A stretch of 64,000 nt of DNA from contig JAOABP010000001.1 of NCBI GenBank assembly GCA_026418295.1, forward strand, positions 124,001 to 188,000. The letters run 5' to 3'. Made by a program: the position numbers and the translations under genes. The notes under the pieces were generated by a model that was given only the letters and a program-made list of their open reading frames with translations, ran no database searches and was not told the origin of the DNA. This document shows positions 27,074 to 47,564 of the stretch, in pieces. The number at the start of each line of letters is the position of its first letter. Position 1 is the stretch's first letter. The stretch comes from Caldifarciminota bacterium (lineage in GTDB: Bacteria; Hydrothermota; Tepidihabitantia; Tepidihabitantales; Tepidihabitantaceae).

Positions 27074-27513
27074 ATTTTCTTTTCCCTTAACGATATTTTT
27101 CTGATTCTGCGGGTATGACGCCCATTGGTAAATTCTGTTTTCAAAAAGACCCGGACGAGCCTTTTTGCCGTTTCCGGAGTGAGCAGGTCCGCACCAAGAC
27201 ACAGAATATTGGCATTGTTGTGCTCCCGGCTGAGACGGGCCATTTTTTCATTAAGGCAGAGAGCCGCCCGCACCCCTGGCAGTTTGTTGGCAGCAATGGA
27301 CATGCCGATCCCGGTAGCACAGATCAGTATACCCCGGTTCGCCTTGCCGGTGCCGACCATTTTTCCGACCGCAAATGCGTAATCCGGGTAGTCGGTCCGC
27401 TCGGCAGTAAATGTGCCGCAGTCAATCGCCTGATGGCCCAAGCGGGAAAGCAGTGATTTGAGTGATTCCTTGAGGTAAAATCCGCGGTGATCTGCTCCCA
27501 GTGCAACTTTCAT
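27070..27513 (-). CDS. rpiB: Ribose-5-phosphate isomerase B
   Basis: RpiB interconverts ribose-5-phosphate and ribulose-5-phosphate in the pentose phosphate pathway. The 147-residue product has the family motifs [31 protein letters not shown], and [17 protein letters not shown] with the catalytic cysteine, plus [14 protein letters not shown]. The length is standard. The ATG overlaps the ilvE stop (ATGA), so it is translated after ilvE. The basic C-terminal tail ([14 protein letters not shown]) is unremarkable. The 3' end overlaps the convergent SLBB gene by four bases through a shared TTAA. Confidence 0.95.
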
Positions 27514-28439
27514 CGGACAAAGGTCAGCCAGCCGTAGCGGTCTTCCCGCTTGAGTTCAATGATGGCGAAGAACTCCTGCTGGAGCCGCCGGGTGACCGGT
27601 CCGCATTTGCCATTACCGATGGTGATCCGGTCAACCGAGCGGATCGGTGTGACTTCGGCAGCGCTGCCGGTGAAGAAAATTTCATCTGCCAGATAGAGCA
27701 TTTCCCGCAGCATCATCGTTTCCCGGACTTCGTAACCGAGCTCGCGGGCCAGGGTGATGATGGTATCGCGGGTAATTCCGGGAAGGATAGTGGCATGGAG
27801 CGGAGGGGTGTAGATAACGCCATTGCGTACGACAAACAGATTTTCCCCGGAGCCTTCAGAGACAAAGCCGAAGACATCAAGGGCGATACCTTCAACAAAG
27901 CCGTAGGTCAATGCCTCCATCTTGATCAGCTGGGAGTTCATATAATTGGCGCAGGTCTTGGACATTGCCGGAAAGGTATTGGGTGCCATCCGGTTCCAGG
28001 AGGAGACCATGACATCCACACCCTGTTCCAGCGCCTCCGGGCCCAGGTATTTTCCCCATTTCCAGGTAATCAGGGCAACATCGACCGGACAGCCGAACGG
28101 ATTTACTCCCAGCTCCTTATAACCGCGATAGACAATCGGCCGGATGTAACATTCGTCCAGCTCGTTCTTTTTAATCAGTTCCACCGTTGCCTGATTGATC
28201 TGTTCCCGGGTGAACGGTATTTCCATCCGGTAGATTTTTGCCGAATTGAAAAGGCGGTTGGTGTGATCTGCCAGCCGGAAGACCGCCGGGCCTTTCGGCG
28301 TTTTATAACAGCGCAAGCCTTCAAAGACACCGGTGCCGTAGTGAATCACATGGGAGCAGATATGGATTTTTGCCTCTTCCCAGGGGACATAGTTGCCATT
28401 CATCCAGATGAACCTGGACTTGGTTTCCTCAAGGCCCAT
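27510..28439 (-). CDS. ilvE: Branched-chain amino acid aminotransferase
   Basis: This PLP-dependent class IV aminotransferase catalyses the last step of valine, leucine and isoleucine synthesis. The 309-residue product has [31 protein letters not shown] and [16 protein letters not shown], in which Lys161 should carry PLP. It also has the cofactor-binding [11 protein letters not shown] and [21 protein letters not shown] precedes the ATG. It lies downstream of a CAU tRNA gene, with a hairpin between them, and overlaps rpiB by four bases. No other branched-chain genes are nearby. Confidence 0.95.
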
Positions 28440-28463
28440 TTGACCTCCTTTAATAAAAGTAAA

Positions 28464-28485
28464 GGCGGAACCTTTGGGCTCCGCC
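28464..28485 (-). terminator. Hairpin between the CAU tRNA and ilvE, probable terminator
   Basis: GGCGGA/TCCGCC stem with a ten-base loop that can pair further (ACC/GGG). On the minus strand it is followed by TTTACTTTTATT. On the plus strand it is followed by GTGCTTTTT, but no plus-strand gene ends here. Confidence 0.5.
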
Positions 28486-28538
28486 GTGCTTTTTATTGAA
28501 CTGAAGTAATATAATCACCGTTGTTCTGCTTTCGTGTA

Positions 28539-28724: not shown

Positions 28725-29948
28725 TTGAAGAGGCTACTGGTGATCGTTAGCGTCTGTTTCGGTTTACTGCTGGCACTCTGGACACCAGTCGGTCCTGGTG
28801 GTGGTAATGTGTATTCGGGTGACATCAGCAATACCAACCCGGCGGTGATCTACTTTGCCCCCTATAACAGCTCCACGCGGCTGGTAAAATCGACTGATGA
28901 AGGGACAACCTGGGTTCAGACTACGGGTGTGCTTTCCGGTTATGTTTATGATCTGCTGGTTCATCCTGCCGATCCCAGTATCGTTTATGCCTGTCTCGGT
29001 TCTTCAATTTACAGGACAACTGACGGCGGTGCATCCTGGATGCGGTTGAATACCCCCAGTTCCAACTACTTCCGGGAGATGGCGTTCAATCCGCAAAATC
29101 CGAATGTGATCTATGCTACGGGATATTACTATGGCGCCAGCCCCTATAAGCAGGTGCTGGTCCGAAGTGATGATGGTGGCAATACCTGGTCTGCCTTTTA
29201 TTTTGATACGACAACGACCAACGCCTATGGTTATTCCCTGGCAATTGATCCGGTTGATACTGCCACCGTTTATGTCGGCGGCTACCGGGCTTCGGGTTTG
29301 ACGACGCTCCATCGCTCCTCAGACCGGGGTCAGACCTGGGAGGAGCTGCCGTTCGGCATCAGCGGTTATTATCCATATGCGATCTATATCAGTCCGGCAA
29401 ATTCGAATCTGATTTTTGTAGCACCCTATACCAGCGGTATCTACCGTTCAACCGACCGGGGTCAGACCTGGACGCGGGTAACCAGTCTGGCTGCGGTTTA
29501 CCGGCTCACCGGGGCATCCGGCAACCCGGCGGTGCTTTATGCCTCTACCAGCGGCAGTGTGTATCGCAGTCAGGATACCGGACGGACCTGGACAGTTGTC
29601 AACCGCGGTCTGTCAGGCACCCCTAATTTCTGCCTGATGAGCAATCCGAACAGCCCGCCGACGGTATATGTCGGGACCAAAACCGGCCTGTTCCGGTCAG
29701 CCAATTATGGTGATACCTGGGAGAATCTGATTGAAGAGCTGTTCCTCAGTCAGGTCAAGGTGGTGGCGCTGGCAGATGATCCGGCGACCCTCTATGTGGA
29801 GTGTCTGAACGATGGTGTGTATAAATCAACTGATAACGGGTCTACCTGGCGTCGCTGTCCGGATTTTCTCTCCTGCGGGAATATCATCTCCATTGCGGTC
29901 GATCCGCGCGATCCGCTGACCGTCTGGGCGCTGGAAGGTTCGGGTTGA
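28725..29948 (+). CDS. BNR/sortilin-repeat secreted protein, N-terminal part up to an in-frame TGA
   Basis: This is the first 407 codons of a 740-codon reading frame (28725-30947). The signal peptide covers residues 1-18 (LLVIVSVCFGLLLALW). Repeats of the BNR/Ycf48 type follow, with 'IYRTTDGGASW', 'VLVRSDDGGNTW', 'IYRSTDRGQTW' and 'VYRSQDTGRTW', which build a beta propeller. The TTG start has GGAGG five bases upstream. The frame is closed by a single TGA at 29946-29948 between Gly and Gly. The downstream codons continue the repeat without any shift (AELFRSTDGGSVW). It may be a pseudogene, a readthrough gene or an assembly error; see the finding. Confidence 0.8.
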   Translation: MKRLLVIVSVCFGLLLALWTPVGPGGGNVYSGDISNTNPAVIYFAPYNSSTRLVKSTDEGTTWVQTTGVLSGYVYDLLVHPADPSIVYACLGSSIYRTTDGGASWMRLNTPSSNYFREMAFNPQNPNVIYATGYYYGASPYKQVLVRSDDGGNTWSAFYFDTTTTNAYGYSLAIDPVDTATVYVGGYRASGLTTLHRSSDRGQTWEELPFGISGYYPYAIYISPANSNLIFVAPYTSGIYRSTDRGQTWTRVTSLAAVYRLTGASGNPAVLYASTSGSVYRSQDTGRTWTVVNRGLSGTPNFCLMSNPNSPPTVYVGTKTGLFRSANYGDTWENLIEELFLSQVKVVALADDPATLYVECLNDGVYKSTDNGSTWRRCPDFLSCGNIISIAVDPRDPLTVWALEGSG

Positions 29949-30035
29949 GGAAACGCCGAGCTCTTCAGGAGCACAGACGGCGGGTCCGTCTGGACACAGA
30001 TTGAAAGTTATCTTGGCGACGGTGCGGCAGTTGCC

Positions 30036-30947
30036 ATGTCACCGGACAACCCTGAGGTAATTTTCACCTGCGGATACGGGTATATCAATAACGCCTACCG
30101 GATTCAGACCTCCTACACAACTGATAACGGTACCACCTGGATCCGGGATACAATCATGGATTCAATTGCCCGGGTGAATGCGTGCATTTTTGATCCGTTT
30201 GTCCCGAACCGGATTCTGCTGGGCGGAGATTCGATCTACAATTACAAACTGCTGCTGGTGAGTACCGATCTCGGCAATACCTGGGAACATACCGGCAATG
30301 GCCTGAGCGGAATTGTCTATTCGCTGGCCGCTTCTGTCCGGACTCCGGGTCTGATGTATGCGGGCACCAGTCAGGGGTTTTACCGTTCAACTGACGGCGG
30401 TGCCAGCTGGAACCGGACCGGCACCTTTACCATGGTCCGTTCGGTCGTAATTGACCCTGCAAATGACAGTTTAATCTATGCGGGCACAAGTACAGGAATT
30501 TTCCGGACGAGTGATGGCGGTGCAACCTGGGTGCAGGACAACGAGGGTCTGGAGGTAACTGACATCCTGACACTGGCGTTCCGGGGCAGTGCGCCACGGA
30601 TGATATTTGCCGGCACCAATGGCGGCGGAGTCTATGTCACTACACCACCGACCGGGATTGGTGAGGTGCAGTCAGGGGCTGCCTTCAGACCGGCGAAACT
30701 GCAGGTGCTGCCCAATCCAGTCCGGGGTGAATTTCAGGTTTTCGTCGATGGCGATGCGGGAGAACTGGTTCAGGGTGCGATCTATGATCCTAGTGGCAGG
30801 CTTGTGCATACGCTGACACCTCAGATCGCCGGCAGCGGCAGAGTGCACTGGCTGGTGAATATGCGGGGTTGCGGTAAAGGGGTGTATTTCCTGCGGGTCC
30901 AGGCTCGAACCGGAGAGGTTACCGGCAGGGTGGTTCTGACCGATTAG
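30036..30947 (+). CDS. BNR/sortilin-repeat secreted protein, C-terminal part after the TGA
   Basis: This is the continuation of the gene that begins at 28725, in the same reading frame; coding similarity starts at 29949, directly after the TGA, while 30036 is merely the first ATG. It contains three to four more BNR repeats ('FYRSTDGGASW', 'IFRTSDGGATW') and ends in an FlgD-like sorting domain (QVLPNPVRGEFQ, IYDPSGRLVHTL, GKGVYFLRVQ). It has no signal peptide or ribosome site of its own at 30036, so it is unlikely to be an independent gene. If translated only by readthrough, export and sorting of the whole protein would depend on reading the TGA. Confidence 0.75.
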   Translation: MSPDNPEVIFTCGYGYINNAYRIQTSYTTDNGTTWIRDTIMDSIARVNACIFDPFVPNRILLGGDSIYNYKLLLVSTDLGNTWEHTGNGLSGIVYSLAASVRTPGLMYAGTSQGFYRSTDGGASWNRTGTFTMVRSVVIDPANDSLIYAGTSTGIFRTSDGGATWVQDNEGLEVTDILTLAFRGSAPRMIFAGTNGGGVYVTTPPTGIGEVQSGAAFRPAKLQVLPNPVRGEFQVFVDGDAGELVQGAIYDPSGRLVHTLTPQIAGSGRVHWLVNMRGCGKGVYFLRVQARTGEVTGRVVLTD

Positions 30948-41466: not shown

Positions 41467-42387
41467 GTGGGTGCAACGCGGCGCGCTCGGGTGACCAGCC
41501 GGTTTTATGTCCGGGTGACCGGTGCGCAGCCGGTCTGGCAGTTCTTTCCACAGGCAGTCAGGCCTTCCGGGATGAAAATCGGACCGGGTATTGCGGAACT
41601 GGTCCATCAGTATCCCAATTTTCTGAATCTGGCTGATGCCGGAATGGTGCCCTTCCGGGTTGTTCTGTCGCTGACCGAGATTGCCGATGTGCGTTCGCCG
41701 GTTTTTCTGGCGGTGCAGGAGTCGGGCGGACTTTATATCGTCGGCTGTCCGGATGAAAGCGGACCGGGCGCCTATACCACGACAGTGGCAGACATTCTGG
41801 CTGCCAGCACGAGAATGTGGCGGATGAGCTATGAGCAGTTTTCCCGGCTGTTTGCCGAGGCCGAAGGGGTGGAGCTGGAGGAGCTGATGCTGGCGCGGAG
41901 CAGTGCGGACTGGGATTTTGAGCAGTTCCAGGCGGCGGTCAGCGCCAATCTGGAAAAGGGCCGGTTTCCGATTCTGATTGTCACCGCTGAACCGGAAGGT
42001 GAGGTCCGGCAGGTGCTCGACTATCTCAAGGGCATGAATCTGAATGCCCGACTGGTAAGCTACTCCGCCTGGGCGAGTGGCGGAATCGTGGTTCTGGAGC
42101 CGGTGCAGGTGGAGACGGCAGTTGAGTCTGAACCGGTCAGGTCTCAGCCAGCCGGGGTTTACTGGGCACCGGTGGAGCCACCGCCGGCACCGTCTGCTCC
42201 ACCGCCGGCAGCCGGACCGCCGCCCGAACCCACAGTTGAGCCTTCAACAAGAATCGGTGCGGGTGCGGTGCCGACCGAGCCGGCAAAGAAGATTGCCAAA
42301 CCGCCGTCGCCGGGCACCAAGCCCGGTGTGATGTCGGGCAAACGGCCACCGCCAAAACCCAGAAACGGCTCCGGAGGAGCGAAATGA
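41467..42387 (+). CDS. Uncharacterised protein with Pro-rich tail (tandem paralog 1)
   Basis: This 306-residue protein has no signal peptide. Residues of about 35-215 form an alpha/beta domain with FLAVQESGGLYIVGCPDE, ILAASTRMWRMSYEQFSRLF, FEQFQAAVSANLEKGRFPIL, and VRQVLDYLKGMNLNARLVSY. The same segments occur in the next gene, so the two are diverged tandem duplicates. The last 80 residues are a basic Pro/Ala/Gly linker (PPPAPSAPPPAAGPPPEP). The strand-helix pattern and 'RQVLDYLKGMNLNARLV' resemble nuclease-fold proteins that aid restriction or DNA binding, but no PD-(D/E)xK residues are evident. The function is unknown. The start is GTG at 41467. It overlaps the next gene by four bases. Confidence 0.7.
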   Translation: MGATRRARVTSRFYVRVTGAQPVWQFFPQAVRPSGMKIGPGIAELVHQYPNFLNLADAGMVPFRVVLSLTEIADVRSPVFLAVQESGGLYIVGCPDESGPGAYTTTVADILAASTRMWRMSYEQFSRLFAEAEGVELEELMLARSSADWDFEQFQAAVSANLEKGRFPILIVTAEPEGEVRQVLDYLKGMNLNARLVSYSAWASGGIVVLEPVQVETAVESEPVRSQPAGVYWAPVEPPPAPSAPPPAAGPPPEPTVEPSTRIGAGAVPTEPAKKIAKPPSPGTKPGVMSGKRPPPKPRNGSGGAK

Positions 42388-43520
42388 AGCACTGCTGTAT
42401 CCGGTCAAAAAGTCCGGGCAGGGTCTGGTATGAGGTAAAGCTGCCCGTCCCCAGTCAGGCGGGAGCGGTCCCGGCTGATTTCTCGCTTGCCGAACTGCTC
42501 CAGCAGACTCCGGAGTTTATCGGGCTGGCACTCGGCAACTGGACTCCAAGGGCGCTGGCGGTGATGCCCGGTGCCACCTCTGCCCGGGTTTTCGTTGCGG
42601 TGGATGAGGCAGGCAGGATTGCGATTGTCGGCTGTCCGGATCAGCAGATTGAAGGTGGAGTCAGTGCGATGGCGGGTGACCTGCTGGCAGCAACCGGCAG
42701 GCTCTGGCATCAGCCGTTTAAAACGCTGGCAGCGATGTTTGGTGACCCGGAGGGGATAAAACTGACTGAACAGCTCCGCGGGCGCAGTGGTGCGTTTGAT
42801 TCTGCCCGGTTCCGGGCGGGGGTGGAAAAAAGTCTGGAGGAGGGCAAGTTTCCAATGGTGATTGCGGTCGACCGGATGGATGAGGCGATTGAGAAAATGA
42901 TGGAGTATCTGAGCACAATGAACCTGCAGGTCCGGCTGATGAGCTATGACTATCTGGAGATCGATGGGCTGGAGATTGTTTTCCCCAAGGTGCTGGGAGG
43001 TGAGGAGCCGGAACCACCGGCAGAAAAACCGGTCAGTACCCCCTATCTGGAGTACACCCCGACCGTGACCGCCATCGGTCAGGAAGAACCGCAACCCCAG
43101 AAGGTTTATGAGCCGTTTCCGGTTGAAGGGACGACCCCGAAGCAGCAGGCGATTCTGGAACGGCTCGTTTACATTGATGATCTCGGCCTGGTCCGGCGCG
43201 GATTTGAATATTTTACCCCCAAAAATATCCAGCGTGCGGTCCGGGAGGGGACGATTGTGGTGGCGGTTGACTCCTCCCGCTGGCCCTTTCCCAAACCGGA
43301 TGAGGTGGTGGTGGTGGTGCGCACCAGCCTGGAGCATCTTGCCGGCTTTCTCAAGATGAAACAGCAGGAGGTGGAGGACTTTCTCAAACTGCTGCCCCGG
43401 GATGAGAAAAAGGAGCACAAAGGGGTGGTGCTGCTCTATGCCCGCAATGTCTACGAGGCAAATCAGCTCGTTAACGAACTCAAGGCGCTGAAGGAAGTGT
43501 CCCAGACCGGGGTCCGGTGA
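42384..43520 (+). CDS. Uncharacterised protein (tandem paralog 2)
   Basis: This 378-residue cytoplasmic protein shares its first 210 residues with the gene before it (VFVAVDEAGRIAIVGCPDQ, LLAATGRLWHQPFKTLAAMF, FRAGVEKSLEEGKFPMVIAV, MMEYLSTMNLQVRLMSYDYL). The C-terminal part, about residues 245-378, is a separate alpha/beta domain (RLVYIDDLGLVRRGFEYFTP, IVVAVDSSRWPFPKPDEVVV, VVLLYARNVYEANQLVNELK). Neither domain is familiar. The ATG overlaps the preceding stop, and its own stop overlaps queH. The constant neighbours POR and QueH give no clear hint. A role in nucleic-acid handling is possible but unsupported. Confidence 0.72.
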   Translation: MKHCCIRSKSPGRVWYEVKLPVPSQAGAVPADFSLAELLQQTPEFIGLALGNWTPRALAVMPGATSARVFVAVDEAGRIAIVGCPDQQIEGGVSAMAGDLLAATGRLWHQPFKTLAAMFGDPEGIKLTEQLRGRSGAFDSARFRAGVEKSLEEGKFPMVIAVDRMDEAIEKMMEYLSTMNLQVRLMSYDYLEIDGLEIVFPKVLGGEEPEPPAEKPVSTPYLEYTPTVTAIGQEEPQPQKVYEPFPVEGTTPKQQAILERLVYIDDLGLVRRGFEYFTPKNIQRAVREGTIVVAVDSSRWPFPKPDEVVVVVRTSLEHLAGFLKMKQQEVEDFLKLLPRDEKKEHKGVVLLYARNVYEANQLVNELKALKEVSQTGVR

Positions 43521-44101: not shown

Positions 44102-45451
44102 TCAGCGGGTGACTATCAGTTTTGCCTCCAGTTCCGGTCCGGAGACAGTTTTCAGCCGGCAGAAGTAAACACCCGGAGATACGGGTTTGCCGGTCGCATC
44201 TCTTCCATCCCAGGTCCGGCTTGTCGGCTGGATGGTGGTGACCAGTCTGCCGGTCCGGTCAAAGATGGAGATTGAGCCGGCAGTGCCGATTTCGGTAACA
44301 AAGTGGATTAGGCCCCTGCCCGGATTCGGGAAGGCATAAAACCGGGCAGGCAGTTTGACCGGTTCATTGCTTTCCCGGATTGCGGTTGGTGTGCCGGTGA
44401 CATATTTTATCGCCCGGCCCGGAACGATCGGAGCACTGCCGTTGTTATAGGTGCCGTCATAAAGACACTGGATTGCAATGGACTGACTCGGGTCCTGAAT
44501 GCCGACGGTACTGGAGGAGTAGCTGTTGGCGGTCAGATACTGGACGACAATCTGGTTGTCACCGGTCGGGGTCGGGACCGTCTGGTCGTAGATGATGATT
44601 TCAAACCGCTCCCAGAGGTTGCTGCCGATATAGTGGACCGAATCCCATTCAATGATGAACCGGTGGTTGGGGGCATCATGGTAATACCAGACACCGTTGC
44701 CGATCGGCGGATAGAGGTCGTCCCAGTTGGCACAGACCGCACCGGGCAGGGTGGTACTGGGCAGAGGATAGTTGTAGTAGACGGTGCTGGTCGTATAGCC
44801 GGGTGCAACCCAGCCGTTGGAGCAGATGGAGATCTGACTGTAGTATTCACCATAAAACTGCCAGGTGAATGGCAGATCGAGCACCACCGTCTGGTCATCA
44901 CTGAGGTCGAGCCGGGTGCCGAGGTTGTTGATTTCAACCCAGGAGAATTCCGGATGCTGGGTGTAGCTGGTGTCAATATCATCGTAAGCCCAGTAGAGCG
45001 GGGGCTGGCGCGGTCCGTCCGGAACCGGATCGGTCTGGACAATCTCACCGACAACCAGCCGGAACCGGAGTGTGTCACAATAGCCGTTACCGTTGATCAG
45101 GAGCAGCAGTTGGACCGGCGTTTCCTTGGGAATTGACGGGTCAACCTGAATCCGGAACGGGTCAGCGGTATTGGTGCGGGTTGAGCAGACAGGGATTGAG
45201 CCGTAACTGGTCGTGGAGTCGGTGATGATGAACCGGGAATCGGTTGAGCGGAGCAGGGCGGTTACATTATCTACGCCCTGATTGCCGATATTGCGCAGGG
45301 CAAGGATCAGACCGCCCGATTCGCCGGGGTCAAATCGGCCGTTATTGTTACCGCCCGGTGGTGAATCAAGCACCGTTTTTGCGCTGAGCAGGATAAATGG
45401 TCCGGAGTTGTTGTTAATTAATGAGATGTCGTCGGCGGAGACCTCCGCCAC
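44102..45451 (-). CDS. Secreted protein, C-terminal part after an in-frame TGA
   Basis: This is the continuation of the gene that begins at 46024, in the same frame and directly after a TGA at 45463-45461; the GTG at 45451 is only the first start-like codon. The segment begins with AEVSADDISLINN, which completes the beta-sandwich domain begun upstream. A CARDB-like region follows (GNNNGRFDPGESGGLILALRN), then a 'YDDIDTSYTQHPEFSWVEI' domain of the type seen in Gram-negative surface proteases. It ends in an FlgD-like unit (YAFPNPGRGLIHF, IFDRTGRLVTTI, VSPGVYFCRL). No ribosome site or signal peptide belongs to it. The whole gene is probably one 640-codon protein gene. Confidence 0.75.
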   Translation of the reverse strand: MAEVSADDISLINNNSGPFILLSAKTVLDSPPGGNNNGRFDPGESGGLILALRNIGNQGVDNVTALLRSTDSRFIITDSTTSYGSIPVCSTRTNTADPFRIQVDPSIPKETPVQLLLLINGNGYCDTLRFRLVVGEIVQTDPVPDGPRQPPLYWAYDDIDTSYTQHPEFSWVEINNLGTRLDLSDDQTVVLDLPFTWQFYGEYYSQISICSNGWVAPGYTTSTVYYNYPLPSTTLPGAVCANWDDLYPPIGNGVWYYHDAPNHRFIIEWDSVHYIGSNLWERFEIIIYDQTVPTPTGDNQIVVQYLTANSYSSSTVGIQDPSQSIAIQCLYDGTYNNGSAPIVPGRAIKYVTGTPTAIRESNEPVKLPARFYAFPNPGRGLIHFVTEIGTAGSISIFDRTGRLVTTIQPTSRTWDGRDATGKPVSPGVYFCRLKTVSGPELEAKLIVTR

Positions 45452-45460
45452 CGGAGTGCC

Positions 45461-46024
45461 TCAGCCGCTGTAGGTATAACTCCAGAGTGCTACTTCAACA
45501 AAGGCGACATCTGAAGGGTTGACGCCGGGCAGGTTACTGGTCAGTTCATCGGCGATGTTGAGTTCATACCGGTTCCAGTCCGGGTTGGTGATCCGGTAGA
45601 GACTGAGGACCGGTGATGGTGTCCAGGTGGCGTAGGTGGAGTAGAAATACCGGGTTTCGCCCAGCAGGTTGGCATCGGCATCGTAATAGCAGACCTGAAA
45701 GCAGGCAGCAGGCCAGCAGGTGGAGGTGCCGCCGCTTTCGGCAAATTTTGCCCAGAATGAAAGCTGCAGGGCAACGCCGGGAACCTCAACTCGCTGGCTC
45801 AGCCGGGTCCAGCCGGGATTGTCATACTGATAAACCCAGGCTTCATAGTCCGGGTCCGGCTGGTATTCGGTTCCCCGCAGAACCTGATGGGTACCGTAAC
45901 CGGAGTCGGTCCTGGTCCAGCCGATGGAGAGATCCTGCTCAAAGTTACCATTGAGCAGCAGCTCTTGGCTCAGGCTCAGGCTGAAGGTTACGGTGAGGAA
46001 AATCAGCAGGTTTTTCAGGCGCAC
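45461..46024 (-). CDS. Secreted protein, N-terminal part up to an in-frame TGA
   Basis: This is the first 187 codons of a 640-codon frame (46024-44102). It starts at the GTG at 46024 with GGAGG four bases upstream. The signal peptide is LKNLLIFLTVTFSLSLSQ. A carbohydrate-binding-like beta sandwich follows (LLLNGNFEQDLSIGWTR, LQLSFWAKFAESGG, FVEVALWSYTYSG). The frame stops at TGA 45463-45461, and the next codons (GTPVAEVSADDISL) complete the same domain. A tryptophan at the TGA position would give SGWG, a natural sequence for this fold. The frame is open upstream to 46075 but the promoter lies there. Confidence 0.78.
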   Translation of the reverse strand: MRLKNLLIFLTVTFSLSLSQELLLNGNFEQDLSIGWTRTDSGYGTHQVLRGTEYQPDPDYEAWVYQYDNPGWTRLSQRVEVPGVALQLSFWAKFAESGGTSTCWPAACFQVCYYDADANLLGETRYFYSTYATWTPSPVLSLYRITNPDWNRYELNIADELTSNLPGVNPSDVAFVEVALWSYTYSG

Positions 46025-46075: not shown

Positions 46076-46101
46076 TATCAGGAAGGGCTGATATCATAAA
46101 C

Positions 46102-46129
46102 TTGACATTGGCGCCCGCTTGCTGATACT
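46102..46129 (+). promoter_or_regulatory. Promoter of the MazG-membrane module operon
   Basis: TTGACA at 46102-46107 and GATACT at 46124-46129, 16-base spacer. The GTG start of the MazG gene is eight bases after the -10, suggesting a leaderless mRNA. Confidence 0.55.
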
Positions 46130-46137
46130 AAAAGGCG

Positions 46138-46452
46138 GTGACAGTTCAGGAGTTTCAGCAGCAAATAAGAGAAATTTATTTTGAAAAGGACCGGCAGCGG
46201 GGCGTGGATGGCACCTTCCGCTGGTTTACCGAAGAGGTGGGTGAGCTCGCCCGGGCGCTGCGTCACAACCGGCAGTCTGCCCTGGAGGAGGAGTTCGCCG
46301 ATGTCTTCGCCTGGCTGGTGAGTCTGGCAAACATCGCCGGCGTGGATCTGGAACAGGCGTGCGCCAAGTACGCCGCCGGCTGTCCGAAGTGCCACTCGGT
46401 TCCGTGCCGGTGTCAGGAACAGCAATTGACGATAGCGGGAAATAAGGAGTGA
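46138..46452 (+). CDS. MazG-family nucleotide pyrophosphohydrolase with cysteine-rich tail
   Basis: This is a small all-alpha NTP pyrophosphohydrolase of 104 residues. The metal-binding motif is EEVGELARAL followed by EEEFADVFAWLVSLAN, the EExxE...ExxD pattern of the MazG/dUTPase-like superfamily. The C-terminal tail has CPKCHSVPCRC, a probable zinc knuckle known from archaeal-type MazG proteins. The substrate could be a non-canonical or oxidised nucleotide. The GTG start at 46138 sits at the likely transcription start. It leads an operon whose next four genes encode membrane proteins; the stop overlaps the RBS of the next gene. Confidence 0.85.
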   Translation: MTVQEFQQQIREIYFEKDRQRGVDGTFRWFTEEVGELARALRHNRQSALEEEFADVFAWLVSLANIAGVDLEQACAKYAAGCPKCHSVPCRCQEQQLTIAGNKE

Positions 46453-46454
46453 TG

Positions 46455-47564
46455 ATGAACCTGATACTGTGTTTTCTCATCGGTGTTTTTGTCCCGCCGA
46501 TCATTTCGGTCCGGGATACGCCGAACGATGCGGGCAAAAGCATCACCGTCAGCTGGCAGCTGCCCGAGGCGGTAACGGTGGAGGCGCTGGTGCTCGAACG
46601 GATGGCAGCGGACGGACAGACGGTCACGGTTGCCACCCTGCCCGGCACCGAGAAGGGCTATGTGGATGAAGGGGTCACTGACCGTCAGCCCTACCGTTAC
46701 CGGGTTGCAGCAGTTGCCGGGGCAGATACGGTCTGGGGTGCATGGTCGGCGGTGGTGCAGAGTTCGCCTCAGTTTTTCAACTGGGCGCGGGTGAATATCC
46801 TGGTGGCGATGCTCATCTTCTTCGCTCTGGTGATCTACTTCATTGAGCATGCGAAGGCGGGCCGGTACCTTTTTGTCCGCCGGATTGCAGGTCTGGATGC
46901 GGTGGAGGAGGCGGTCGGCCGGGCGACCGAAATGGGCAAGCCGATCGTATATGTGCCCGGTCTGGGTTCGGTTGCCGACATCGCAACCATCGCTTCGCTG
47001 AACATCCTGGGCGAGGTGGCGAAGAAGACCGCCCAGTATGACTCGGCGCTGCTCGTGCCGAACCGGGATCCGATTGTCTATACGGTGGCGCGGGAGGTGG
47101 TCAAGGAGGCGTATACCAAGGCGGGCCGGCCTGATGCCTTCAAACCGGACAACATCTTCTTTGTGACCTCGGAGCAGTTTGCCTATGCGGCAGCGGTGGA
47201 CGGTCTGATGGTCCGGGAAAAGCCGGCAACCAACTTCTTCCTCGGTACCTTCTGGGCGGAGTCGCTGATTCTTGCCGAGACCGGTGCGACCACCGGTGCG
47301 ATCCAGATTGCGGGCACCGATTCGGTCTTCCAGCTGCCGTTCTTCATCACCGCCTGCGACTATACCCTGATCGGTGAGGAGCTGTATGCGGCGTCCGCCT
47401 ATCTTTCCCGGGAGCCGCTTTTGCTCGGTTCGCTCAAGGGACAGGACTACGGCAAGATGCTGATCATCATCATCGTCGTTCTCGGTTCGGTGCTCCTTCT
47501 GCTCTCGAAAATTCCGGCGCTCGGGTTCTTCAGTAATATCATCAATTTCTTCAATGTCAGCTGA
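46455..47564 (+). CDS. Membrane protein: FnIII domain, TM helix, globular domain, TM helix (DUF6754-like)
   Basis: This 369-residue protein is the first of the four-gene membrane module. A hydrophobic N-terminus (LILCFLIGVFVPPII) is followed by an FnIII-like domain at about 20-100 (KSITVSWQLPEAVTVEALVL, PYRYRVAAVAGADTVWG). A transmembrane helix follows (VNILVAMLIFFALVIYFI). An alpha/beta domain occupies about 135-325 (GKPIVYVPGLGSVADIATIA, SALLVPNRDPIVYTVAREVV, TGAIQIAGTDSVFQLPFF). It ends in a second helix (MLIIIIVVLGSVLLLLS). From memory it resembles the family called DUF6754; a profile search should confirm this. AAGGAG lies five bases before the ATG at 46455. Function unknown. Confidence 0.8.
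   Translation: MNLILCFLIGVFVPPIISVRDTPNDAGKSITVSWQLPEAVTVEALVLERMAADGQTVTVATLPGTEKGYVDEGVTDRQPYRYRVAAVAGADTVWGAWSAVVQSSPQFFNWARVNILVAMLIFFALVIYFIEHAKAGRYLFVRRIAGLDAVEEAVGRATEMGKPIVYVPGLGSVADIATIASLNILGEVAKKTAQYDSALLVPNRDPIVYTVAREVVKEAYTKAGRPDAFKPDNIFFVTSEQFAYAAAVDGLMVREKPATNFFLGTFWAESLILAETGATTGAIQIAGTDSVFQLPFFITACDYTLIGEELYAASAYLSREPLLLGSLKGQDYGKMLIIIIVVLGSVLLLLSKIPALGFFSNIINFFNVS

Follow-up and report, generated by a model that had tools for sequence, protein, structure and literature searches.

The question raised by this locus is how two genes, each broken by one in-frame TGA, come to stand as otherwise open frames in the window, by which we mean the whole 64-kb stretch of DNA analysed. 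The first gene (family A) occupies 44102-46024 on the minus strand, with a GTG start at 46024, and its sole internal stop is the TGA at 45463-45461, codon 188, in the context AGC GGC TGA GGC ACT. The second (family B) occupies 28725-30947 on the plus strand, 13 kb from the first, and is likewise a single frame with one TGA, at 29946-29948, codon 408, in the context TCG GGT TGA GGA AAC (LEGSG-U-GNAEL when translated). No further interrupted gene of this kind was recognisable in a list of the adjacent in-frame open stretches of the window. An earlier note had taken both TGA codons as real, had linked them through their common Gly-TGA-Gly context and had proposed programmed recoding, and these parts of it are borne out here by the conservation of the codon at the homologous position, by hairpins in the RNA and by the selenocysteine (Sec) machinery of the genome. 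From this sequence evidence it is very probable that both TGA codons encode selenocysteine and that both genes are intact selenoprotein genes.

Conservation of the codon was followed by DNA alignment, in which TGA is the homologous codon in 33 distinct family A and 60 distinct family B sequences, the most divergent having about 30% identity. Every homologue that carries the motif, [GCS]-U in family A and LEGxGUGxAEL in family B, has TGA at the aligned codon. Within 100 related genomes, the full-length family A homologues among the matches listed have exactly one TGA each, as have nearly all full-length family B homologues. A DNA search with the codon left open (pattern GARGGNNNNGGNNNNGG...) in 147 genomes of the phylum gave 52 matches, 51 with TGA and one with AGA; TGG, TGC and TGT were never found at the open codon, and the reversed control pattern gave no match in the same genomes. 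The lone AGA match lies in a distant genome and is probably due to chance. Since the TGA is found at the homologous position of full-length homologues and in 51 of the 52 matches, with an empty control, and since fragmented metagenome-assembled genomes (MAGs) and closed chromosomes alike have it, it is not there by chance. Both flanks of the codon are under purifying selection, dN/dS for five orthologue pairs being 0.05-0.12 before the UGA and 0.13-0.24 after it.

Stem-loops after the TGA, which had been put forward earlier as worth testing for, are present in both genes as a covarying SECIS-like hairpin behind each codon. The published rules for the bacterial element (bSECIS) are a stem of at least 4 bp, a loop of 3-9 nt, a G in the first two loop positions and a place 16-37 nt after the UGA (PMC13188914), and the hairpins of A and B both agree with them. 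In family A the bSECIS-like hairpin GGCGGA-GGUC-UCCGCC (45434-45449, minus strand) has 6 pairs and a loop that starts 17 nt past the TGA; throughout the family the distance from UGA to hairpin is 17-23 nt, and the stem takes the forms GCGGAGGUCUCCGC, GCGAAGGUCUUCGC, GCAAAGGUCUUUGC or GCAGAGGUCUCUGC, fully paired throughout, with GGUC on top in all and with extension by a G-C or an A-U pair. In its GGUC loop on a GC..GC stem the element is similar to the one of E. coli fdhF. Over 29 sequences all 174 cells of the 6 pairs (100%) are paired, with compensatory changes in 3 of the pairs; both sides have changed in 19 cells (0 of 500 shuffles), and slid controls are 17-62% paired. The stem spans the codons for Ala-Glu/Lys-Val-Ser/Phe-Ala-Asp, so that pairing in the RNA dictates the amino-acid pair, E..S or K..F, and the proteins read AEVSAD or AKVFAD.

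Family B has two small helices, with compensatory changes in 7 of their 10 pairs. The first small hairpin after the TGA (29960-29972, plus strand) has 4 pairs, each with at least one compensatory change, and the bSECIS-like apical hairpin AGACGG-CGGGU-CCGUCU (29975-29991, plus strand) has 6 pairs, 3 of them with compensatory changes, and a loop starting 32 nt past the TGA, the distance from UGA to hairpin being 32-33 nt in this family. Single-sequence folding energies are unremarkable (z of -1.1 and -1.5) and in gene A a competing fold is found in the 39-nt stretch, so that covariation is the evidence for the hairpins. Nothing in Rfam matched the region of the family A hairpin.

The genome encodes a tRNA-Sec with anticodon UCA (74 bits against a cut-off of 47) alongside SelA, SelB and SelD. 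The selD gene (C8:322172-323077) adjoins selB and belongs to a known Sec-containing family; its own in-frame TGA, in SCAG-U-ASK, belongs to the known UxxK motif and is followed by a hairpin, and this Sec codon served as an internal positive control. Among 100 genomes, SelA or tRNA-Sec was found in 33 of the 35 that have A or B genes and in 26 of the 65 that lack them (Fisher p = 4e-8, indicative only because the genomes are related). In the two exceptions, G029 and G055, neither a complete SelA nor a tRNA-Sec was found. As selA and the tRNA-Sec gene lie a few kb apart in several members of the class, the absence of a single contig could account for the lack of both in G029, which is incomplete. 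In G055, a closed MAG with family A, a partial SelA match (the C-terminal 114 residues) lies about 2 kb away and no tRNA-Sec was detected; the cause there may be frameshift errors or a decaying Sec system.

With these components, a ribosome at the UGA would meet the bSECIS-like hairpin just downstream in the mRNA, SelA would make Sec-tRNA(Sec) using selenophosphate from SelD, and SelB carrying the Sec-tRNA(Sec) would bind the hairpin and insert selenocysteine. Insertion at the UGA would yield one full-length protein and, since both proteins combine a signal peptide with a sorting domain of the T9SS type at the C-terminus, export would be expected, with the product surface-attached or released. 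We infer from the genes that both proteins incorporate selenium and are exported.

Other readings of the two codons were weighed against the same data. The UGA could be a leaky stop or a phase switch, yielding a short product that is secreted and a long one anchored by its tail. Some ribosomes terminate at UGA even in selenoprotein genes, and a short product may exist here through such partial termination, but the part downstream of the UGA has neither a signal peptide nor a conserved start codon, and the shape of the hairpins together with the Sec machinery indicates selenocysteine. The codon is moreover fixed across genera, families and phyla, so that phase variation, and with it the phase control suggested by the earlier note, falls away, leaving this reading very unlikely. 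It is also very unlikely that a suppressor tRNA or a leaky tRNA-Trp reads the UGA as tryptophan. The earlier note had judged TGG to be the natural codon and W to suit the fold, some Trp codons lie near the site and a G follows the UGA in both contexts; no homologue with TGG could be found, however, either in the 52 open-codon matches or among the aligned homologues. Among the tRNA genes examined, tRNA-Trp has its normal CCA anticodon and the sole UCA tRNA is tRNA-Sec, TGA is the normal stop of many window genes, and covarying SECIS-like hairpins would be superfluous for tryptophan.

The Sec machinery might instead insert mainly cysteine, with sulfur replacing selenium, and this is compatible with the sequence inasmuch as the inserted residue is visible from protein data only. 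SelD and SelA are complete, however, SelD itself carries Sec, and a need for cysteine would be served by TGC or TGT, which are never seen, so that cysteine insertion has very little probability. Sequencing errors or recent nonsense mutations making pseudogenes, although a stop within a frame of a MAG is frequently an error, can be dismissed because the same TGA stands in dozens of independent genomes of three phyla, closed chromosomes among them, with purifying selection on both sides.

Selenocysteine is thus supported, at the level of sequence, by a codon that is UGA only, covarying hairpins, selection on either side of the codon and a complete Sec machinery. The points against it are the exceptions G029 and G055, the unremarkable single-sequence folding, the competing fold in gene A and the finding of no Cys homologues. 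Neither a Cys nor a Trp version of either family was found in the open-codon search or among the aligned homologues. Cys-containing homologues are usual for selenoprotein families, though not strictly defining.

In the family A protein (model pLDDT 86) a signal peptide is followed by a jelly-roll domain, which holds Sec188, then by Ig-like domains and, at the C-terminus, a tail of the T9SS type. In the model, Sec188 lies in a loop of the jelly-roll domain between the strands 175-185 and 192-204; the preceding residue is Cys in 15, Gly in 14 and Ser in 4 sequences. The N-terminal domain could not be named from Pfam or NCBIfam, and Foldseek searches with the model gave low TM-scores and single-domain fits only (jelly-roll/CBM-like). 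The sorting domain, of T9SS type A, takes up residues 565-638 (44111-44332, minus strand; TIGR04183, 31.2 bits against a cut-off of 23).

The family B protein consists of a signal peptide, tandem Asp-box beta-propellers with Sec408 and a T9SS-type tail, whose type A sorting domain takes up residues 662-737 (30708-30935, plus strand; TIGR04183, 27.9 bits, same cut-off). The model is a tandem seven-bladed propeller with BNR/Asp-box repeats, a fold shared with GH74 xyloglucanases and other Asp-box propellers (Foldseek E about 1e-27, TM about 0.6); with 17-20% identity to GH74 the likeness is one of fold only, and glycosidase activity is not claimed. Of 27 aligned Sec proteins, 26 have Cys384 (SCGN), 24 residues before Sec. 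Because propeller topology, an established geometry, puts the Cys384 loop and the Sec loop on the same face, the likeliest function of family B would be that of a redox pair, Cys384-Sec408, on a single face of a propeller blade. B-like propeller paralogues without TGA lack the motif, with Ser at the site in one and a gap in the others, and the partner Cys is replaced by Ala or Ser in four Sec-less paralogues; those in G017 and G005 are possibly Sec-less descendants or an outgroup. For both families the role of Sec is most likely extracellular redox or soft-metal chemistry.

In the same genome a full-length family A paralogue (C9:153856-155754) has 34% identity and TGA at the same place. Covariance models of the two hairpins gave two strong matches each in the genome, namely the window genes and their paralogues, four genes in total, and the next matches, with E of 0.06 and above, look like chance. 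Both window proteins are above the TIGR04183 cut-off at their C-termini, as T9SS sorting-domain proteins are (Por_Secre_tail/FlgD-like tails), whereas most other tail proteins of the genome have no internal TGA: of 46 sorting-tail matches, 17 were re-read, mostly shorter frames, and none had a further TGA of the A or B kind. The earlier idea of recoding in surface proteins generally was therefore too broad. As a separate observation, at C12:80941-81081, 688 open codons and a TAA stand in the same frame ahead of a sorting-tail frame of about 180 codons, and this region may be two genes or one broken gene.

In named genomes, a scan for the TGA motif placed family B in three groups: the candidate division WOR-3/Stahlbacteria, Fermentibacteria (Sabulitectum, Aegiribacteria, Hyd24-12) and, with two MAGs, Planctomycetota; seven other matches lay in short frames and represent chance. 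Relatives such as G004 agree with named WOR-3 records in that scan, which makes WOR-3 the probable phylum of the window. The Planctomycetota MAGs may have acquired family B by transfer or inherited it from an ancient ancestor, or the binning may be at fault. Three genomes of one genus have the two genes in tandem, with A first and B following on the same strand after about 80 nt; in G002, G003 and G009, no more than about 3 kb separates B from the gene for tRNA-Sec. Open frames without a Pfam match also occur near both genes in the window, at 27501-28499, 41467-42387, 42384-43520 and 46078-46850.

Families A and B share an in-frame UGA followed by a hairpin with the bacterial bSECIS selenoproteins, of which 119 families/subfamilies are catalogued, FdhA and SelD among them (PMC13188914), and the genome that carries A and B likewise has SelA, SelB, SelD and tRNA-Sec. 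No catalogued family has the domains of A and B, which are predicted to be secreted, carry a sorting tail, are not thioredoxin-like and yielded no Cys relatives. Neither family has a match in this catalogue of prokaryotic selenoproteins (May 2026), NCBIfam release 20 (June 2026) contains no selenoprotein model that matches the window proteins, and in the open-licence literature no selenoproteins were found for WOR-3, Fermentibacteria, T9SS or beta-propeller contexts. Selenobacteriocin (PMC13188914) has the short motif SGUG in common with them, a resemblance of motif only, since by annotation it is an unrelated family. Within what could be searched, A and B thus appear to be two new selenoprotein families of a kind that is itself known.

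These are apparently uncatalogued selenoprotein families in little-studied phyla, and with no Cys relatives they would be missed by searches relying on Cys homologues; a standard gene caller would split both genes at the TGA. Their bSECIS-like elements are unusually clear, with an RNA stem that dictates paired changes of amino acids. A and B hint at selenium chemistry outside the cell, and, more tentatively, they might be two parts of an extracellular, selenium-dependent surface system of WOR-3 bacteria and, for B, of Fermentibacteria, in which Sec would be irreplaceable by Cys, for example in a redox or metal-binding couple.
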